DNA from: Verrucomicrobiota bacterium
Lineage (GTDB): Bacteria > Verrucomicrobiota > Kiritimatiellia > CAIQIC01 > JAGNIJ01
Direction: 5' to 3'
DNA length: 64,000 nucleotides
NCBI GenBank assembly: GCA_022710725.1
Contig: JAKLGK010000002.1
Location: forward strand, 124,001 to 188,000
Part shown: positions 35,499 through 63,495 of the stretch, one piece after another
Numbering within the stretch: the stretch's first letter is position 1
Layout: each line of letters begins with the position of its first letter
Notes under the pieces: model-generated
Seen by the model: only the letters and a program-made list of their open reading frames with translations
What the model was told of the DNA's origin: nothing
Databases searched by the model: none
Translations under genes and position numbers: made by a program

Positions 35499-36752
35499 CT
35501 ACGGTACGTTCGCCTCCAGGATCGGGTCGGTGAACATGATGTGCCCATAGGTCGGCCCCCAGCCGCCCCCGGCCTGGAGGTCCTGACTGACGGCCACGGT
35601 GTAGAGCAGCGTGTCCGCGTTGCGCTTGCCGGCGACCTGCGCGGTGAGGCTGCGCGTCGTCCGGTGGCGCAGGGCCGTCTGGGTGGTGTCCGTCCATTCC
35701 AACGCGCTTTCCTGCTTCCAGTCCGGGCTGATGATCGCCGTCTTGAGGACCCGCGCGCCGGGCTGGGCGCGCAGGACGAACTGCCCGGCGGACTTCTTCA
35801 ACTCCGCCGCGTCCGCGCCGGCGTAGGCGTCCGGCGCCATCCGGGTCTCGGCGATGCGGGCGGCGCGCAGCCGGGCATCGGCGCGCTTGAGGTTTTCGAT
35901 CCGCCGGTTCATCGCGTTGATCCGCTGGTCGCCGGTCTTCAGCAGGCCGGCGGCGCGGTCCACGATCTCCTGCGCGTTGCCGATCTGGTCGCGCTCGGGG
36001 AACAGGAAGGTCTCCTTCGAGGCCATGTTGACGTCCTGCTCGCGGATGAACTGCTCCAGGCGGCCGATGGCCGCGTCCGCGTCGCGGAGGTCCTGCTCGG
36101 CGTACTGGCGGCAGGAGGATTCAAACTGGACGAGGGCGTTCTCGAGGAGAGCGGCGACCTGTTTCAGGTCGTCCGTGGCCAGGTCGCCGAGGCCGGCCTT
36201 CTTGTATTCCGCCAGCGCGGCCGAGGCCTCGGCATAAATCCCGAGCCGTTTTTGCATTTCCGCCGGGTCCTGCGTGGCGCTGGACACGAGGTACTTGTCC
36301 GGATCGTGGCTGGATTGCCCGAGGCCGATGACGTGCGGGCGCATTCGGGCGAGCCAGGGCTCCGAGGCCTCGCCGGCGGCGGCGGCCTGCTGCCCGGCCG
36401 CCGCCTGCGCCTGCTGCATCGCGTCCGCCCGCCCGCCGGCCGCGGCCTCCAGTTTCGCGATGCGGCCCTGCATGGCGACGATGTCGGGGTGCGAAGGGGA
36501 GTACTGGCCCGCGTACCGCTGCTCGATCTCGGACATCTTCTCGCGGGCTTCCACGGCGGCGGTCTTCGCGGTCTCGATCTTCCATTCCTCGGACGCCACC
36601 GAGTTGGATTCCAGGGCGCGCTCCGCCCGGGCCAGGATGCGGTCCGCCTCCTTCAGCCGGAACGAGACGTTGCTTGGGAGCTTGTCCTGGGCGGAAGCGG
36701 TCATAATCCCGAGGCCTGTCAGAAGGATCGTCCATAGGCGGCTTGAGTGCAT
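35499..36752 (-). CDS. Exported coiled-coil protein of unknown function
   Basis: A 417-residue protein with a signal peptide (MHSSRLWTILLTGLGIMTASA) and an AAGGAG ribosome-binding site close upstream. Residues about 25-310 are strongly helical, rich in Ala, Glu, Lys and Gln, with long coiled-coil stretches (ASEEWKIETAKTAAVEAREK, INAMNRRIENLKRADARLRA). The last roughly 100 residues form a beta-rich domain (GQFVLRAQPGARVLKTAIIS and onward) with no family I recognise. It could be a periplasmic structural or adaptor protein; this is inference from composition only. Confidence 0.7.
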   Translation of the reverse strand: MHSSRLWTILLTGLGIMTASAQDKLPSNVSFRLKEADRILARAERALESNSVASEEWKIETAKTAAVEAREKMSEIEQRYAGQYSPSHPDIVAMQGRIAKLEAAAGGRADAMQQAQAAAGQQAAAAGEASEPWLARMRPHVIGLGQSSHDPDKYLVSSATQDPAEMQKRLGIYAEASAALAEYKKAGLGDLATDDLKQVAALLENALVQFESSCRQYAEQDLRDADAAIGRLEQFIREQDVNMASKETFLFPERDQIGNAQEIVDRAAGLLKTGDQRINAMNRRIENLKRADARLRAARIAETRMAPDAYAGADAAELKKSAGQFVLRAQPGARVLKTAIISPDWKQESALEWTDTTQTALRHRTTRSLTAQVAGKRNADTLLYTVAVSQDLQAGGGWGPTYGHIMFTDPILEANVP

Positions 36753-36772
36753 GGCGTACTCCTTTCTCCCTC

Positions 36773-36800
36773 ACTTTAACCGCGAGAGACGGGTGGGCAA
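36773..36800 (-). promoter_or_regulatory. Predicted promoter of the coiled-coil protein gene
   Basis: Minus-strand TTGCCC (36795-36800), 16 bases, TAAAGT (36773-36778), 21 bp upstream of the ATG at 36752. The -10 hexamer is the same as that predicted at 2985-2990. Confidence 0.3.
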
Positions 36801-36892
36801 GTCCATTCCTTTGCGCGAGCTCGCTTAACCGTTATGGCGTGGCCGGGTACGTTGAAACTGGGGTTCATGGGGCTTTTCCCGCGAAGGAGCTC

Positions 36893-39800
36893 ATGCGCAT
36901 CTTGCCTGTTCTGGCTGCGGCTGGCGGCTTGGTCTGCGTAACGGTCCGGGCCGGCGCGTCCACGCGATACGTAGCGGCATCCGGCAGTCACTCGTCCCCG
37001 TACACCAACTGGGCCACCGCCGCGCACGATATCCAGACGGCCGTGGACGCGGCCTCCGCCGGCGAGACGATCCTCGTCACGAACGGGATCTACGACACGG
37101 GCGGGCGCGCCATGGACAGCGGCATGACCAACCGCGTCGTGATCAACAAGGCCGTGACCGTGATCAGCGTCAACGGGCCGGACTTCACGTTTCTTGTCGG
37201 CCAACCCTGTCCGACCAACGGCGCGAACGGGAGCGGGGCGATCCGCGTGGCCTACTTGAGCGGCGGCGCGGTGCTGGCGGGATTCACGGTGACCAACGGA
37301 TACACCCTCGCCCTGGAAGACAGCGGCAGCGCCAAGACCAGCGGGGGCGGGGTGTACGTTTCCGGGGACGGGATGATCTCCAACTGTGTGCTGACGGGCA
37401 ACGCGGCTTACTACTACGGGGGCGGCGCGGTCGATGCGGCGGTCCATCGCTCCATTCTGGCCGGCAATCGCGCCCGATCGAGCGGCGGCGGGGCTGATGA
37501 GAGCCAGCTCTATAATTGCATCCTTGTTGGCAACACGTCCTACGGGGGCGGCGGCGCGAGTTACAGCCGGTTGTACAACTGCACCGTGATCGGGAACACG
37601 GCCACCAACCGCGGTGGCGGAGTGTCCTACAGTTATTGCTTCAGCAGCATCCTGGCGGATAACGACGCGCCGTCGGGCGCGAATGTGTATTTCTGGTCCT
37701 ACACTAACTGCTGCCTCTACCCCGCGACGACGGTCGGCGGGAACAGCATCACGAACGAACCGGGGTTCGTGGACGGCCCGGACGGCGACTATCGCCTTTC
37801 GGCCACGTCGGCCTGTATCAACGCCGGGCTGGTCATGCCCTGGATGACCGACGCGCGGGATTTCGACCTGAACGCTCGCGTCGTGGGCGCCAGCGTGGAC
37901 ATCGGTGCTTTCGAATACCAGGGCCTCTCCGATCCGCTCTTGGTGGAGATCGTTGCCGCCGATCTCCAGGCGGTTGTCGGATACTCCGTTCCGCTGGCCG
38001 GCCGGATCGTGGGTAACGCGGAGGGTTTTGTGTGGCAGTTCGGCGACGGCCGCGGCGCGACGAACCAGCTGTATGTCACCAATACCTACGCCGCGGTGGG
38101 CCTGTACGAGGTCACGCTGACGGCCTCCAACCTCGCCGGCGCCGTCGTCGCCACGGCGGCCGTGGAAATCGTCAGCGCGGACTACGCCTACTACGTGGCG
38201 ACGAACGGCGACGACGCCGCGGCCGGCACGAACTGGGCGACGGCCAAGGCGACGATCCAGGCGGCGGCCGACGCGGCGGGGCCCGGCTGCACGATCTGGG
38301 TCACCAACGGCGTCTACGACCGGGGCGGGCGCGTTGTCTACGGCAGCTTGACCAACCGCGTCGCGCTCGACAAGCCGCTCTTCCTCCGCAGCGTCAACGG
38401 GCCGGACGTGACGATCATCGCCGGCGCGCCGAACGCCGACGGCGTCCCGGACGGCGCCGCGGCCGTGCGTGGCGTCTACATGGCCAGCAACACCGTCCTC
38501 GACGGGTTCACGGTGACCAATGGCCACACGCTGGCGGAAGGCGACACGACGCGCGAGCGCAGCGGCGGCGGGGTCTACGCGGGCACCACGAACGCCTTCA
38601 TCACCAATTGCGTGATCACCGGCAGCACCGCCGACCGCTACGGGGGCGGGTGCTGCCGGGGCACTCTTTATAACTGCCGGCTGCTGGGCAACGCGGCCAC
38701 GAACATGGGCGGCGGCGCGTATTCCGCGGTCCTGTTTGGTTGCCTGGTGACGGACAACGCCGCGCTGAATGGGGGCGGGCTTGCCAGTTCAGCGGCCCGG
38801 AACGGCGTCGTGCGCGGCAACCGCGCCGCGCAATATGGCGGCGGGCTCTACTCGGCAGCCGGGGCGTCGGAGAGTTGCACGGTCGCCGGCAACAGCGCGG
38901 GCACGAGCGGCGGCGGAGCGTATCGCGGTTCGCTCCTGAATTCCATCGTCTACTATAACGATGCGCCCACCGGCCCCGATTTCTTCGAAGGCGACTTTAC
39001 GAACTGCTGCGTCGCTTCCTGGCCCGCGGGGGCCAACAACATCACCAACCCGCCGGGCATCGTCAGCACGCTGGACCCTCGCCTCATGCCGGGCGCCGCC
39101 GTCATCGGACGGGGCACGAACCAGCCATGGATGGCAGCCGCCGTGGACTGGGACGGCGCGCCGCGGATCACGGGCGCGTCGGTGGACATGGGGGCGTTCG
39201 AATTCGTTTCCGAATCGGAGTGTACTGGCGCGTTGAGCGCGGCGATTTCGTGCGCCTACACGCAGGCTCCCGCCGGGTTCTCGGTGCCGTTCGAGGCGCT
39301 TGTCGCCGGCCGGGTGCAGGGCTACGAGTGGGATTTCGGGGACGGCGCGCGCGCGACCAGCGGGTGCGTGGTCGGCCATGCCTTCGCGGCGGCGGGAGTG
39401 TTCCCGGTCGTGCTGACGGTGTCCAATCTCGCCGGTTCCGTCGCCGCGACGACGGAAGTCGCCATCGTGGAGCCGGACTGCAACCTGTATGTCCGGCCGG
39501 GCGGGGATGATGGCGCGGCGGGAACAAACTGGGTGACCGCCTTCGCAACGATCCAGGCGGCCGTGGACGCCGCGAGCCTCGGCTGCACGATCTGGTTGAC
39601 CAACGGCGTCTACACGAACGGCGGGCGCGCGGTCGAGGCTGGCCTGACCAACCGCGCCGCCGTGGACCGGGTCGTCACCGTCCGCAGCGTCAACGGGCCG
39701 GCCTTCACGGCGATCGCGGGGCAGGGCGGTATCGGCCCCGGGGCGGTGCGCTGTGTCTGGCTGGGCAGCGGGGCGCGGTTGGATGGATTCACGCTGACCA

Positions 39801-41485
39801 ATGGATTCACCCTGGCGACCGGCACGTCGGAGAAGCAGGGGGGCGGAATCTGGGCCGAGGGTTCGCTGGCCGTGGTCACCAATTGCTGGGTCGCCGGCTG
39901 CGGCGCGGCCGGGAGCGGCGGGGGCGGGTACGGCGGCAACTACCAGGCGTGCGTGTTCGATGGCAACACCGCCGCGCGTGGCGGCGGGGTCAGCGCGGCC
40001 GAGTTGGAGGGCTGTACCGTCACCAACAACCGGGCGAGTTATGGCGGCGGGACCGAGTACGGCACGCTGTCGGACTGCCGGATCAGCCGCAACAGCGCGA
40101 CCAACGGCGACGGCGGCGGCGCATACGGCGGCACGCTGACTGGTTGCTTGCTGTCCGGCAACACGGCCGCCAACGCCGGCGGCGGCGCGTACAATGCACA
40201 ATTGTCCGAGTGCACGCTGCTAAGCAACCTGGTCTCCGGCGCGACCGGCGAGGGCGGCGGAGCGTACGGGGGAACGCTCGTGGATTGCGCGCTCGTCCAG
40301 AACTCGGTCACGAACCATCCCTCGTTCGGAGGCGGGGCCTCCGCCGTTGACCTGGTCGGTTGCACCTTGACCAGCAACCGGGCCGATTACGGCGGTGGGG
40401 CGTACGGGGGAAGCCTCTCGAACTGCGCGGCGGGCTGGAACGGCGCGGCTTACGGCGGCGGCGCGTACGATAGCCTCCTGAACGATTCATCGCTGCACCA
40501 TAACGCCGCGTCGAACGGCGCCGGGCTGTATCTCGGGTCCGCGTACGACACCGTATTTTCCAACAACACGGCCGTGGCGGGCGGAGGGGGCGCGTGCGCC
40601 TCTGTTCTGCACAATTGCCGCCTGCTCCACAACGACGCGGGCGAGGGCGGTGGAGCCGCGGGTGGGACGATCTACAACTGCGTCGTACTGAACAACACGG
40701 CCGATTACGGCGGCGGTGTGGCCTCGGCGGAGAGCTACAACTGCACCATCGTCGGCAACGACGCGACCTCGTTCGGCGGCGGCACGTTCTGGGGCACGCC
40801 GCGCAACTGCATCGTCTACTACAACACCGCCTTCGCCTCGGTGAATGCGTACTTCGGCTGGCTGACCAACTGCTGCAGCACCCCGATGCCGGACGGGACG
40901 GACAATTTCATCGCCGCGCCGAGGATGGCGGACTATGCCGCCGGCGACGTCCGGCTCTTGAGCAACTCTCCGTGCATCAACGCGGGGACGAACCAGGACT
41001 GGATGATCGGCTCGCGAGACCCGGACGGGAACCACCGGATCATCCTGAACGTCGTGGACGTCGGCGCATACGAGTACGCCTACCCAGGCGTCGACCACGA
41101 CGGCGACGGCATCGAGACGGCTTACGAAACCGGGACCGGCGTCTACGCCGGGCCGGAGAACACGGGCACGGACCCGCTGTCGGCCGACACGGACGCCGAT
41201 CGGTTGACGGACGGCGACGAGTTGACGGCGGGGAGCGATCCGACAGACGACGCTTCCTTCCTGGGCATGATTCTTCCTTCGGCGCAGGACGCGGCGGGCC
41301 TCATCGTGTCCTGGCAGAGCGCCGAGGGGAAGACTTACCGGCTCGAGCGGTCCAGCAACCTGGTCTGGGGCTTCGATTACCTGGTGCAGACCAACATCCC
41401 GGCGACGCCTGTCGTCAACACGGTTACCGACGCCACCGCGACGGGGACGGGCCCCTACTACTACCGCGCCGGCGTCGAGCCATAG
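36893..41485 (+). CDS. Giant secreted parallel beta-helix protein with PKD domains
   Basis: A 1530-residue exported protein. ATG 36893 follows AAGGAG and begins a signal peptide (MRILPVLAAAGGLVCVTVRA). Three similar modules follow, each opening with YVA-type strand, TNWATAxxxIQxAxDAA and TNGVY, then a glycine-rich beta-helix of units like GGGAYGGTLTGCLLSGNTA, and closing with a NAGTNQxWM and VDxGAxEY motif. PKD domains lie between modules (about 350-428 and 774-860; GFVWQFGDGRGATN, GYEWDFGDGARATS). Residues about 1400-1530 are the calcium-type repeat plus C-terminal beta module shared with other secreted proteins here. Likely a surface adhesin or polysaccharide-acting protein; no catalytic residues are recognised. 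Confidence 0.88.
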   Translation: MRILPVLAAAGGLVCVTVRAGASTRYVAASGSHSSPYTNWATAAHDIQTAVDAASAGETILVTNGIYDTGGRAMDSGMTNRVVINKAVTVISVNGPDFTFLVGQPCPTNGANGSGAIRVAYLSGGAVLAGFTVTNGYTLALEDSGSAKTSGGGVYVSGDGMISNCVLTGNAAYYYGGGAVDAAVHRSILAGNRARSSGGGADESQLYNCILVGNTSYGGGGASYSRLYNCTVIGNTATNRGGGVSYSYCFSSILADNDAPSGANVYFWSYTNCCLYPATTVGGNSITNEPGFVDGPDGDYRLSATSACINAGLVMPWMTDARDFDLNARVVGASVDIGAFEYQGLSDPLLVEIVAADLQAVVGYSVPLAGRIVGNAEGFVWQFGDGRGATNQLYVTNTYAAVGLYEVTLTASNLAGAVVATAAVEIVSADYAYYVATNGDDAAAGTNWATAKATIQAAADAAGPGCTIWVTNGVYDRGGRVVYGSLTNRVALDKPLFLRSVNGPDVTIIAGAPNADGVPDGAAAVRGVYMASNTVLDGFTVTNGHTLAEGDTTRERSGGGVYAGTTNAFITNCVITGSTADRYGGGCCRGTLYNCRLLGNAATNMGGGAYSAVLFGCLVTDNAALNGGGLASSAARNGVVRGNRAAQYGGGLYSAAGASESCTVAGNSAGTSGGGAYRGSLLNSIVYYNDAPTGPDFFEGDFTNCCVASWPAGANNITNPPGIVSTLDPRLMPGAAVIGRGTNQPWMAAAVDWDGAPRITGASVDMGAFEFVSESECTGALSAAISCAYTQAPAGFSVPFEALVAGRVQGYEWDFGDGARATSGCVVGHAFAAAGVFPVVLTVSNLAGSVAATTEVAIVEPDCNLYVRPGGDDGAAGTNWVTAFATIQAAVDAASLGCTIWLTNGVYTNGGRAVEAGLTNRAAVDRVVTVRSVNGPAFTAIAGQGGIGPGAVRCVWLGSGARLDGFTLTNGFTLATGTSEKQGGGIWAEGSLAVVTNCWVAGCGAAGSGGGGYGGNYQACVFDGNTAARGGGVSAAELEGCTVTNNRASYGGGTEYGTLSDCRISRNSATNGDGGGAYGGTLTGCLLSGNTAANAGGGAYNAQLSECTLLSNLVSGATGEGGGAYGGTLVDCALVQNSVTNHPSFGGGASAVDLVGCTLTSNRADYGGGAYGGSLSNCAAGWNGAAYGGGAYDSLLNDSSLHHNAASNGAGLYLGSAYDTVFSNNTAVAGGGGACASVLHNCRLLHNDAGEGGGAAGGTIYNCVVLNNTADYGGGVASAESYNCTIVGNDATSFGGGTFWGTPRNCIVYYNTAFASVNAYFGWLTNCCSTPMPDGTDNFIAAPRMADYAAGDVRLLSNSPCINAGTNQDWMIGSRDPDGNHRIILNVVDVGAYEYAYPGVDHDGDGIETAYETGTGVYAGPENTGTDPLSADTDADRLTDGDELTAGSDPTDDASFLGMILPSAQDAAGLIVSWQSAEGKTYRLERSSNLVWGFDYLVQTNIPATPVVNTVTDATATGTGPYYYRAGVEP

Positions 41486-41500
41486 ATTCCGTTTCGGACT

Positions 41501-41717
41501 CTAGCCCGGATAATGCGCGATTGGCGCGCATTATCCGCCCAAAGGGCCGTGATGTGCCCGCGTTGCGGGCACAAACGGGGCTTGCCACGTTCGTATTGTC
41601 GAATCCTTGATTCGACAATACGTCACGTCTTCTGGCACGCGAATTGCCTATGCAATTCGCGTGCCCAGAAGCGCTTATTGCGTGAGCGTCTCTACGCTCA
41701 TGCAATAAGCGGGCTAG
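41501..41717. repeat. CTAGCCCG-bounded mosaic hairpin element, copy 1
   Basis: 217 bp bounded by CTAGCCCG (41501-41508) and CGGGCTAG (41710-41717). Five hairpins follow one another: a 12-bp stem 41508-41519/41525-41536; an 8-bp stem 41554-41561/41565-41572; a 14-bp stem 41592-41605/41609-41622 with a 3-base loop; a 14-bp stem 41634-41647/41652-41665; and an 18-bp stem with one G-T mismatch 41672-41689/41694-41711. It lies between two convergent genes. The right end provides the TAG stop of selD. A copy at 63237-63495 is identical except for 42 extra bases. Confidence 0.9.
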
Positions 41718-63236: not shown

Positions 63237-63495
63237 CTAGCCCGGATAATGCGCGATTGGCGCGCATTATCCGCCCAAAGGGCCGCCACGTGAGCCGCGT
63301 AGGCCGCGGCAACGTGGCCGCACGCGGTGATGTGCCCGCGTTGCGGGCACAAACGGGGCTTGCCACGTTCGTATTGTCGAATCCTTGATTCGACAATACG
63401 TCACGTCTTCTGGCACGCGAATTGCCTATGCAATTCGCGTGCCCAGAAGCGCTTATTGCGTGAGCGTCTCTACGCTCATGCAATAAGCGGGCTAG
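63237..63495. repeat. CTAGCCCG-bounded mosaic hairpin element, copy 2
   Basis: 259 bp bounded by CTAGCCCG (63237-63244) and CGGGCTAG (63488-63495). By eye it is identical, base for base, to the element at 41501-41717 except for 42 extra bases at 63286-63327. Those contain one more hairpin (CCACGTGAGCCGCG at 63286-63299 against CGCGGCAACGTGG at 63305-63317). The element fills most of the 313-bp gene-free stretch upstream of the btuF-like gene. Its right end supplies the TAG stop of the secreted-protein gene at the window edge. Orientation is the same as in copy 1. Confidence 0.9.

Follow-up and report, generated by a model that had tools for sequence, protein, structure and literature searches.

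Correia elements (CREE/NEMIS) of Neisseria are short and non-autonomous and occur in two main lengths of ~105 and ~155 bp, with a ~50-bp internal stretch that carries an IHF site (PMC2229807, PMC2649163). Compared by anatomy alone, they are the nearest precedent for the two length classes described here, which also differ by an internal unit. However, Correia elements use a different, TA-type target and their core is known from Neisseria only, whereas the elements of this study contain several hairpins and duplicate a 4-bp target of YTAR type, and their internal unit is found on its own, inside other copies of itself and within unrelated repeats as well. The double-hairpin elements of fungal mitochondria are likewise small, mobile and able to invade other repeats; they differ in genome, size and structure and serve as a lead only. 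REP, BIME and REPIN sequences (GTAG and CGTC super-families) are short palindromic repeats near gene ends that form inverted hairpin pairs and mosaics (PMC3733652, PMC2817692). The REP super-families are alike in small size and gene-end location. In contrast, no GTAG or CGTC tag was assigned here, the outer element duplicates 4 bp of its target, a link to RAYT genes was not found and the module has four arms instead of a single stem-loop. The REP trait of lacking a target duplication is true of the 42-nt module, but not of the outer element. IS5 insertions have the target-site duplication motif YTAR (PMC10359306), and the outer element resembles IS5 in this target; no PF01609 transposase was found in the source genome at E <= 0.001. 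Verrucomicrobiota and pseudoknots are both absent from a 2024 review of prokaryotic MITEs (PMC10969869). The literature was surveyed in open papers, and an earlier description elsewhere is possible.

The DNA analysed here, referred to as the window, is a stretch of 64,000 nucleotides (C7:124001-188000) from a Verrucomicrobiota genome (G000; 3.89 Mb in 14 contigs, 94.8% complete). It contains two copies of the element, W2 and W1 (Table 1). The first-pass annotation had described copies of 259 and 217 bp, separated by a clean 42-bp insertion and matching in all remaining bases. String comparison and alignments confirmed this exactly. W2 equals W1 plus 42 bp with nothing else altered, and no mismatch separates the two skeletons along the 217 bases aligned. 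The lengths and the coordinates of the insert were also correct, with a register ambiguity of 1 bp (63285-63326 is equally readable). Folded as single-stranded DNA with short flanks, W2 reached -121 kcal/mol compared to -60 +/- 4 for shuffled sequences (z -15). The AIR-synthase-like gene to the right of W1 has a full-length Pfam C-terminal domain. As a separate observation, a long plus-strand reading frame of the window (36743-41485) encodes a repetitive large protein and contains direct DNA repeats of ~70% identity, spaced 1224-1296 bp (37031-39721).

Table 1. Positions of the two element copies and of their parts in the window.
Feature	Position	Strand	Remark
Copy W2	63237..63495	+ (strand as read)	259 bp, with module
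Left target-site duplication CTAG of W2	63237..63240	.	duplication inferred from non-palindromic copies elsewhere
Hairpin HP1	63243..63273	+	perfect 13-bp stem
Small hairpin HP2 (CCCAAAGGG)	63274..63282	+	C-UUCG-G-like in some relatives
Optional 42-bp four-arm (pseudoknot-like) module	63286..63327	+	the indel
Hairpin HP3	63331..63351	+	between conserved TGATG and AAACGGGG
Hairpin HP4	63370..63400	+	
Hairpin HP5	63407..63449	+	
Hairpin HP6	63450..63489	+	
Right target-site duplication CTAG of W2	63492..63495	.	gives TAG stop to minus-strand gene on right
Copy W1	41501..41717	+	217 bp, without module
Empty module site GGCCG^TGATG in W1	41549..41550	.	
Right CTAG of W1	41714..41717	.	gives TAG stop to minus-strand AIR-synthase-like gene on right

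The ends of the element were compared in G000 and its relatives, where the boundaries read 4 bp plus CCYG on one side and CRGG plus 4 bp on the other. Non-palindromic flanking 4-mers were direct repeats in 11/14 copies and inverted repeats in 0/14. The direct repeats were CTGG (L007, L042, L045), ATAG (L015), TTAG (L032, L040) and CTAA (L127, L128, L138, L117, L035), and the 4-mers had diverged in three copies (L006, L134, L118). Thus, the outer 4 bp represent a target-site duplication, mostly YTAR. These direct repeats also ruled out that the terminal CTAGCCCG/CGGGCTAG are a plain inverted repeat. Like MITEs, the element is short, non-coding, multi-copy and dispersed and has a target duplication of fixed length (4 bp). 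Its terminal inverted repeats CCYG/CRGG are just 4-5 bp long, followed by subterminal hairpins of unrelated sequence, and in this respect the resemblance to MITEs is weak. Shorter complete forms of 85-144 bp, ending in AAACGGGG and the target duplication, were found as well (L113, L127, L052), therefore the long form represents a version extended by further hairpins. Across 24 elements, the 5' arm of HP1 took 20 different forms, and most of these were perfectly paired. Three elements (L032, L037, L045) were observed to have HP1- and HP6-type end hairpins as in the window family but to share nothing of its interior (CTTCGACGCGCC... CCGAAACTTCGGCGGC), which has thus been replaced between conserved end hairpins.

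A flanking reading frame ends within the 4-bp duplication in 7/13 G000 copies. L009 lies beside a UPF0047 gene whose last residue corresponds to that of its element-free homologue in G001; this gene thus uses its native stop codon. Measured against a rough window-based expectation, the coincidence with stop codons has a P of about 0.02. This excess is modest and tolerance explains it as well as targeting does, therefore targeting is not claimed.

A DNA search combined with a covariance model revealed at least 13 dispersed element copies in G000, a lower bound because rarer divergent copies may be missed, and repeats can be collapsed in MAG assemblies. The module is present in L001, L002, L003, L009, L010, L011 and L015 and absent from L004-L008 and L023. 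The skeletons of L001 and L004 are identical. L001, which carries the module, is nested among module-less copies, and its older relatives L002, L003, L009 and L010 carry the module. Thus a single gain or loss does not account for this distribution. The same polymorphism was found in a second, diverged subfamily (B), with the module in L015 and without it in L023. L010 is a mosaic of a subfamily-A skeleton and a module almost identical to that of the subfamily-B copy L015. Such a mosaic is explained by the strongest alternative, in which homologous recombination or gene conversion exchanges the module among existing copies, so that two master forms interconvert and the module itself is immobile. 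The position of L001 among module-less copies is consistent with such swapping, and the identical flanking hairpins offer ample homology. However, copy-to-copy recombination does not explain insertion into unrelated hosts, and the unit occurs with the same ends in unrelated repeats, inside other modules and alone, where flanking homology is absent. Overall, we consider exchange between copies unlikely.

Full and empty sites of the module were compared in nine cases. All revealed whole-module indels without any duplication seen, and most pairs can be read as gain or as loss. At the site GGCCG^TGATG, the mismatches per 32 flank bases were 0 in subfamily A and 0 in subfamily B of G000, 2 in G005, 3 in G034, 2 in G074 and 5 in G028. 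The earlier suggestion that hairpins are gained and lost as units was therefore supported for the 42-bp module, since the same site is full or empty in two subfamilies and four further genera. Elsewhere in the element, ordinary slippage-like indels were found. L010 has lost ~33 nt that took in half of each of HP5 and HP6, with ATTGC direct repeats as the apparent endpoints, and L008 has lost 4 nt near the HP1 loop, at loop and stem end. In G074, some modules (L108, L111) are shortened by a partial deletion or partly duplicated internally. The expectation that length variants always differ by whole hairpins thus failed, as the indels of L010, L008, L108 and L111 cut stems or the module. Within the class, module order was conserved except where modules are nested or inverted.

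The first-pass annotation had named replication slippage as a source of the module indel, and simple slippage or deletion of a hairpin could in principle leave copies without a module. Slippage-like indels do occur in the family, between ATTGC repeats in L010 and within the modules of L108 and L111, which is in line with this explanation. For the module, it is disfavoured by the lack of junction homology, which was 0 or 1 bp in 9/9 comparisons. Moreover, the module boundaries are identical in five genera of the class, and on the left the module begins with arm a1 rather than at the foot of the predicted hairpin. Slippage is thus a very unlikely origin of the module indel.

Insertion of the module was also observed outside the canonical site. 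Comparison of L048 with L127 revealed a module inside a module, with 32/32 flank bases matching. In G446, which belongs to another class, a module lies in an unrelated host repeat, CAAACTAAAGTTTG^AACTCCAAC (L214; 32/32 flank bases), and the module of L213 has 5 flank mismatches compared to the empty copy in L214. Modules nested at CG^TT were found in G122, G001, G002, G034, G226 and G212, and at many loci modules lie apart from the outer element. G028 has a second, inverted module between HP3 and HP4. Since clean insertions of the unit are found within its own copies and within unrelated repeats across the phylum, it looks like a mobile element itself. In G034 (L046, L050, L054 and other contigs), the module-in-module composite was seemingly present about nine times, which would mean that nested composites themselves multiply. 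An abundant repeat, GTTGGAGTnCAAACTTTAGTTTG(TC), with a hairpin CAAACT..AGTTTG was noticed at L206-L220 (G440, G446, G396); some copies host the 40-nt module.

The module is a discrete unit of 40-42 nt with the layout a1-GAG-a2-loop-a3-(2-4 nt)-a4. The insert had been annotated as one extra stem-loop. It is not a simple stem-loop, as it has four arms (CCACGT, CCGCGT, ACGTGG and ACGCGG in W2) of which the best-supported pairs are interleaved (a1:a3, a2:a4). The predicted energy minimum of the W2 module is a nested hairpin. Pairing was tested on a sequence-only alignment of 82 module matches. The interleaved register a1:a3 + a2:a4 resulted in 97.4% paired cells and 34 double-change cells. The ordinary hairpin register (a1:a4 + a2:a3) was rejected as a poorer fit, with 90.9% paired and 25 double-change cells. 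Pairing of a2:a4 together with a local a2':a3 hairpin was fairly well kept (94.0% paired, 34 double-change cells). All three registers exceeded shuffles, therefore the shuffle control alone separates none of them, nor does it exclude mere relatedness. Covariation in simple modules was found mainly at one position per helix. The outer modules of nested pairs had fuller compensation (GGACGT:ACGTCC, GGGCGT:ACGCCC, CCCCGT:ACGGGG), examples that are illustrations and not counts because the finder of these modules required pairing. The nested hairpin and the interleaved form may be two states between which the module switches.

Pairing that is kept despite sequence change, together with UUCG- and GNRA-like loops, would fit with a selected structured RNA domain in 3' UTRs (a terminator, stabiliser or protein-binding RNA), the modularity being domain shuffling. 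The 7/13 copies that begin or end at a stop codon would fit as well. However, arms can stay matched without an RNA function, and the patchy distribution, the target duplications and the multi-copy bursts are traits of mobile elements. We consider such an RNA domain quite unlikely. A known Rfam RNA was rejected, as the loci searched with lax thresholds gave no credible family match and none that reached the gathering score.

The outer-element model found matches in 32/288 genomes sampled from the class. The module model matched 24/288 genomes in the class and 18/387 in the phylum, and in family f70, outside the class, the module reached up to 13 copies. Phage and plasmid collections gave no match, and viral contigs gave no module match. 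The lone viral-contig match (L058) had no surrounding element by eye, was coding-like and was taken as chance. Thus, a phage, plasmid or virus origin was rejected.

Searches for candidate mobilising enzymes revealed none with support. IS701-type DDE_5 was absent everywhere except for one sub-threshold match, and IS701 was discarded as mobiliser for lack of supporting DDE_5 matches. DDE_Tnp_1 (IS5/IS4-like) was absent in G000, G034 and G083, and was rejected since no credible element was found beside 26 loci elsewhere; two weak R1 scores were obtained, in L291 and L292 (E 0.02-0.08). The examined loci of PF13546, PF01609 and PF01797 included no autonomous partner transposon with the same ends.

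A further explanation considered was that of REP/REPIN-type elements with RAYT (Y1) transposases as their mobilisers. The copies are short, hairpin-rich and close to gene 3' ends, the module has no target duplication, like REPs, and most of these genomes encode Y1 transposases. The 4-bp duplication of the outer element argues against this origin, and a module or element was found near Y1 genes at 0/27 loci checked. Moreover, G074 contains at least 10 elements and no Y1 match, and several Y1 genes have flanking repeats of their own. A RAYT origin was rejected on these grounds and is highly improbable. On either side of the Y1 genes at L246, L247, L248 and L263, motifs of GGGGTCAG/GGGGACAG type or CGGGGTCGAGTCTAG were seen to recur, which are probably the REP-like repeats of these genes.

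We favour a two-tier organisation as the probable explanation, consisting of a non-autonomous MITE-like outer element and a four-arm module of 40-42 nt that behaves as a whole unit. The outer element, made of consecutive hairpins, would insert at YTAR-type sites and duplicate 4 bp there, in many cases at TAG or TAA stop codons, where the duplication would allow the gene to keep its stop. It may be mobilised in trans by a DDE-type transposase. The module would be inserted and lost whole, without target duplication, as a rule directly 3' of a hairpin (HP2 here, other hairpins in other repeats) or, alternatively, at CG^T or CAA^CG within another module. A dedicated enzyme may move it as a folded single strand. 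More tentatively, we propose that the pseudoknot-like unit could be an independent mobile element of Verrucomicrobiota and among the smallest known. Such an element would be site-specific beside hairpins or into itself, leave no target duplication, excise precisely and rely on a new enzyme that moves it in folded, single-stranded form.

How REP-like and MITE-like hairpins originate, grow and recombine is a long-standing question, and inferences have usually relied on a single length class. In this study, sites with and without one 40-42-nt unit were found in one genome, in the unit itself and in unrelated repeats, and thus mobility of the whole unit can be distinguished from slippage. An enzyme dedicated to a folded unit this small would be a novelty. 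When an element inserts at a stop codon and duplicates it, the gene stays intact, which is one way for such elements to spread.
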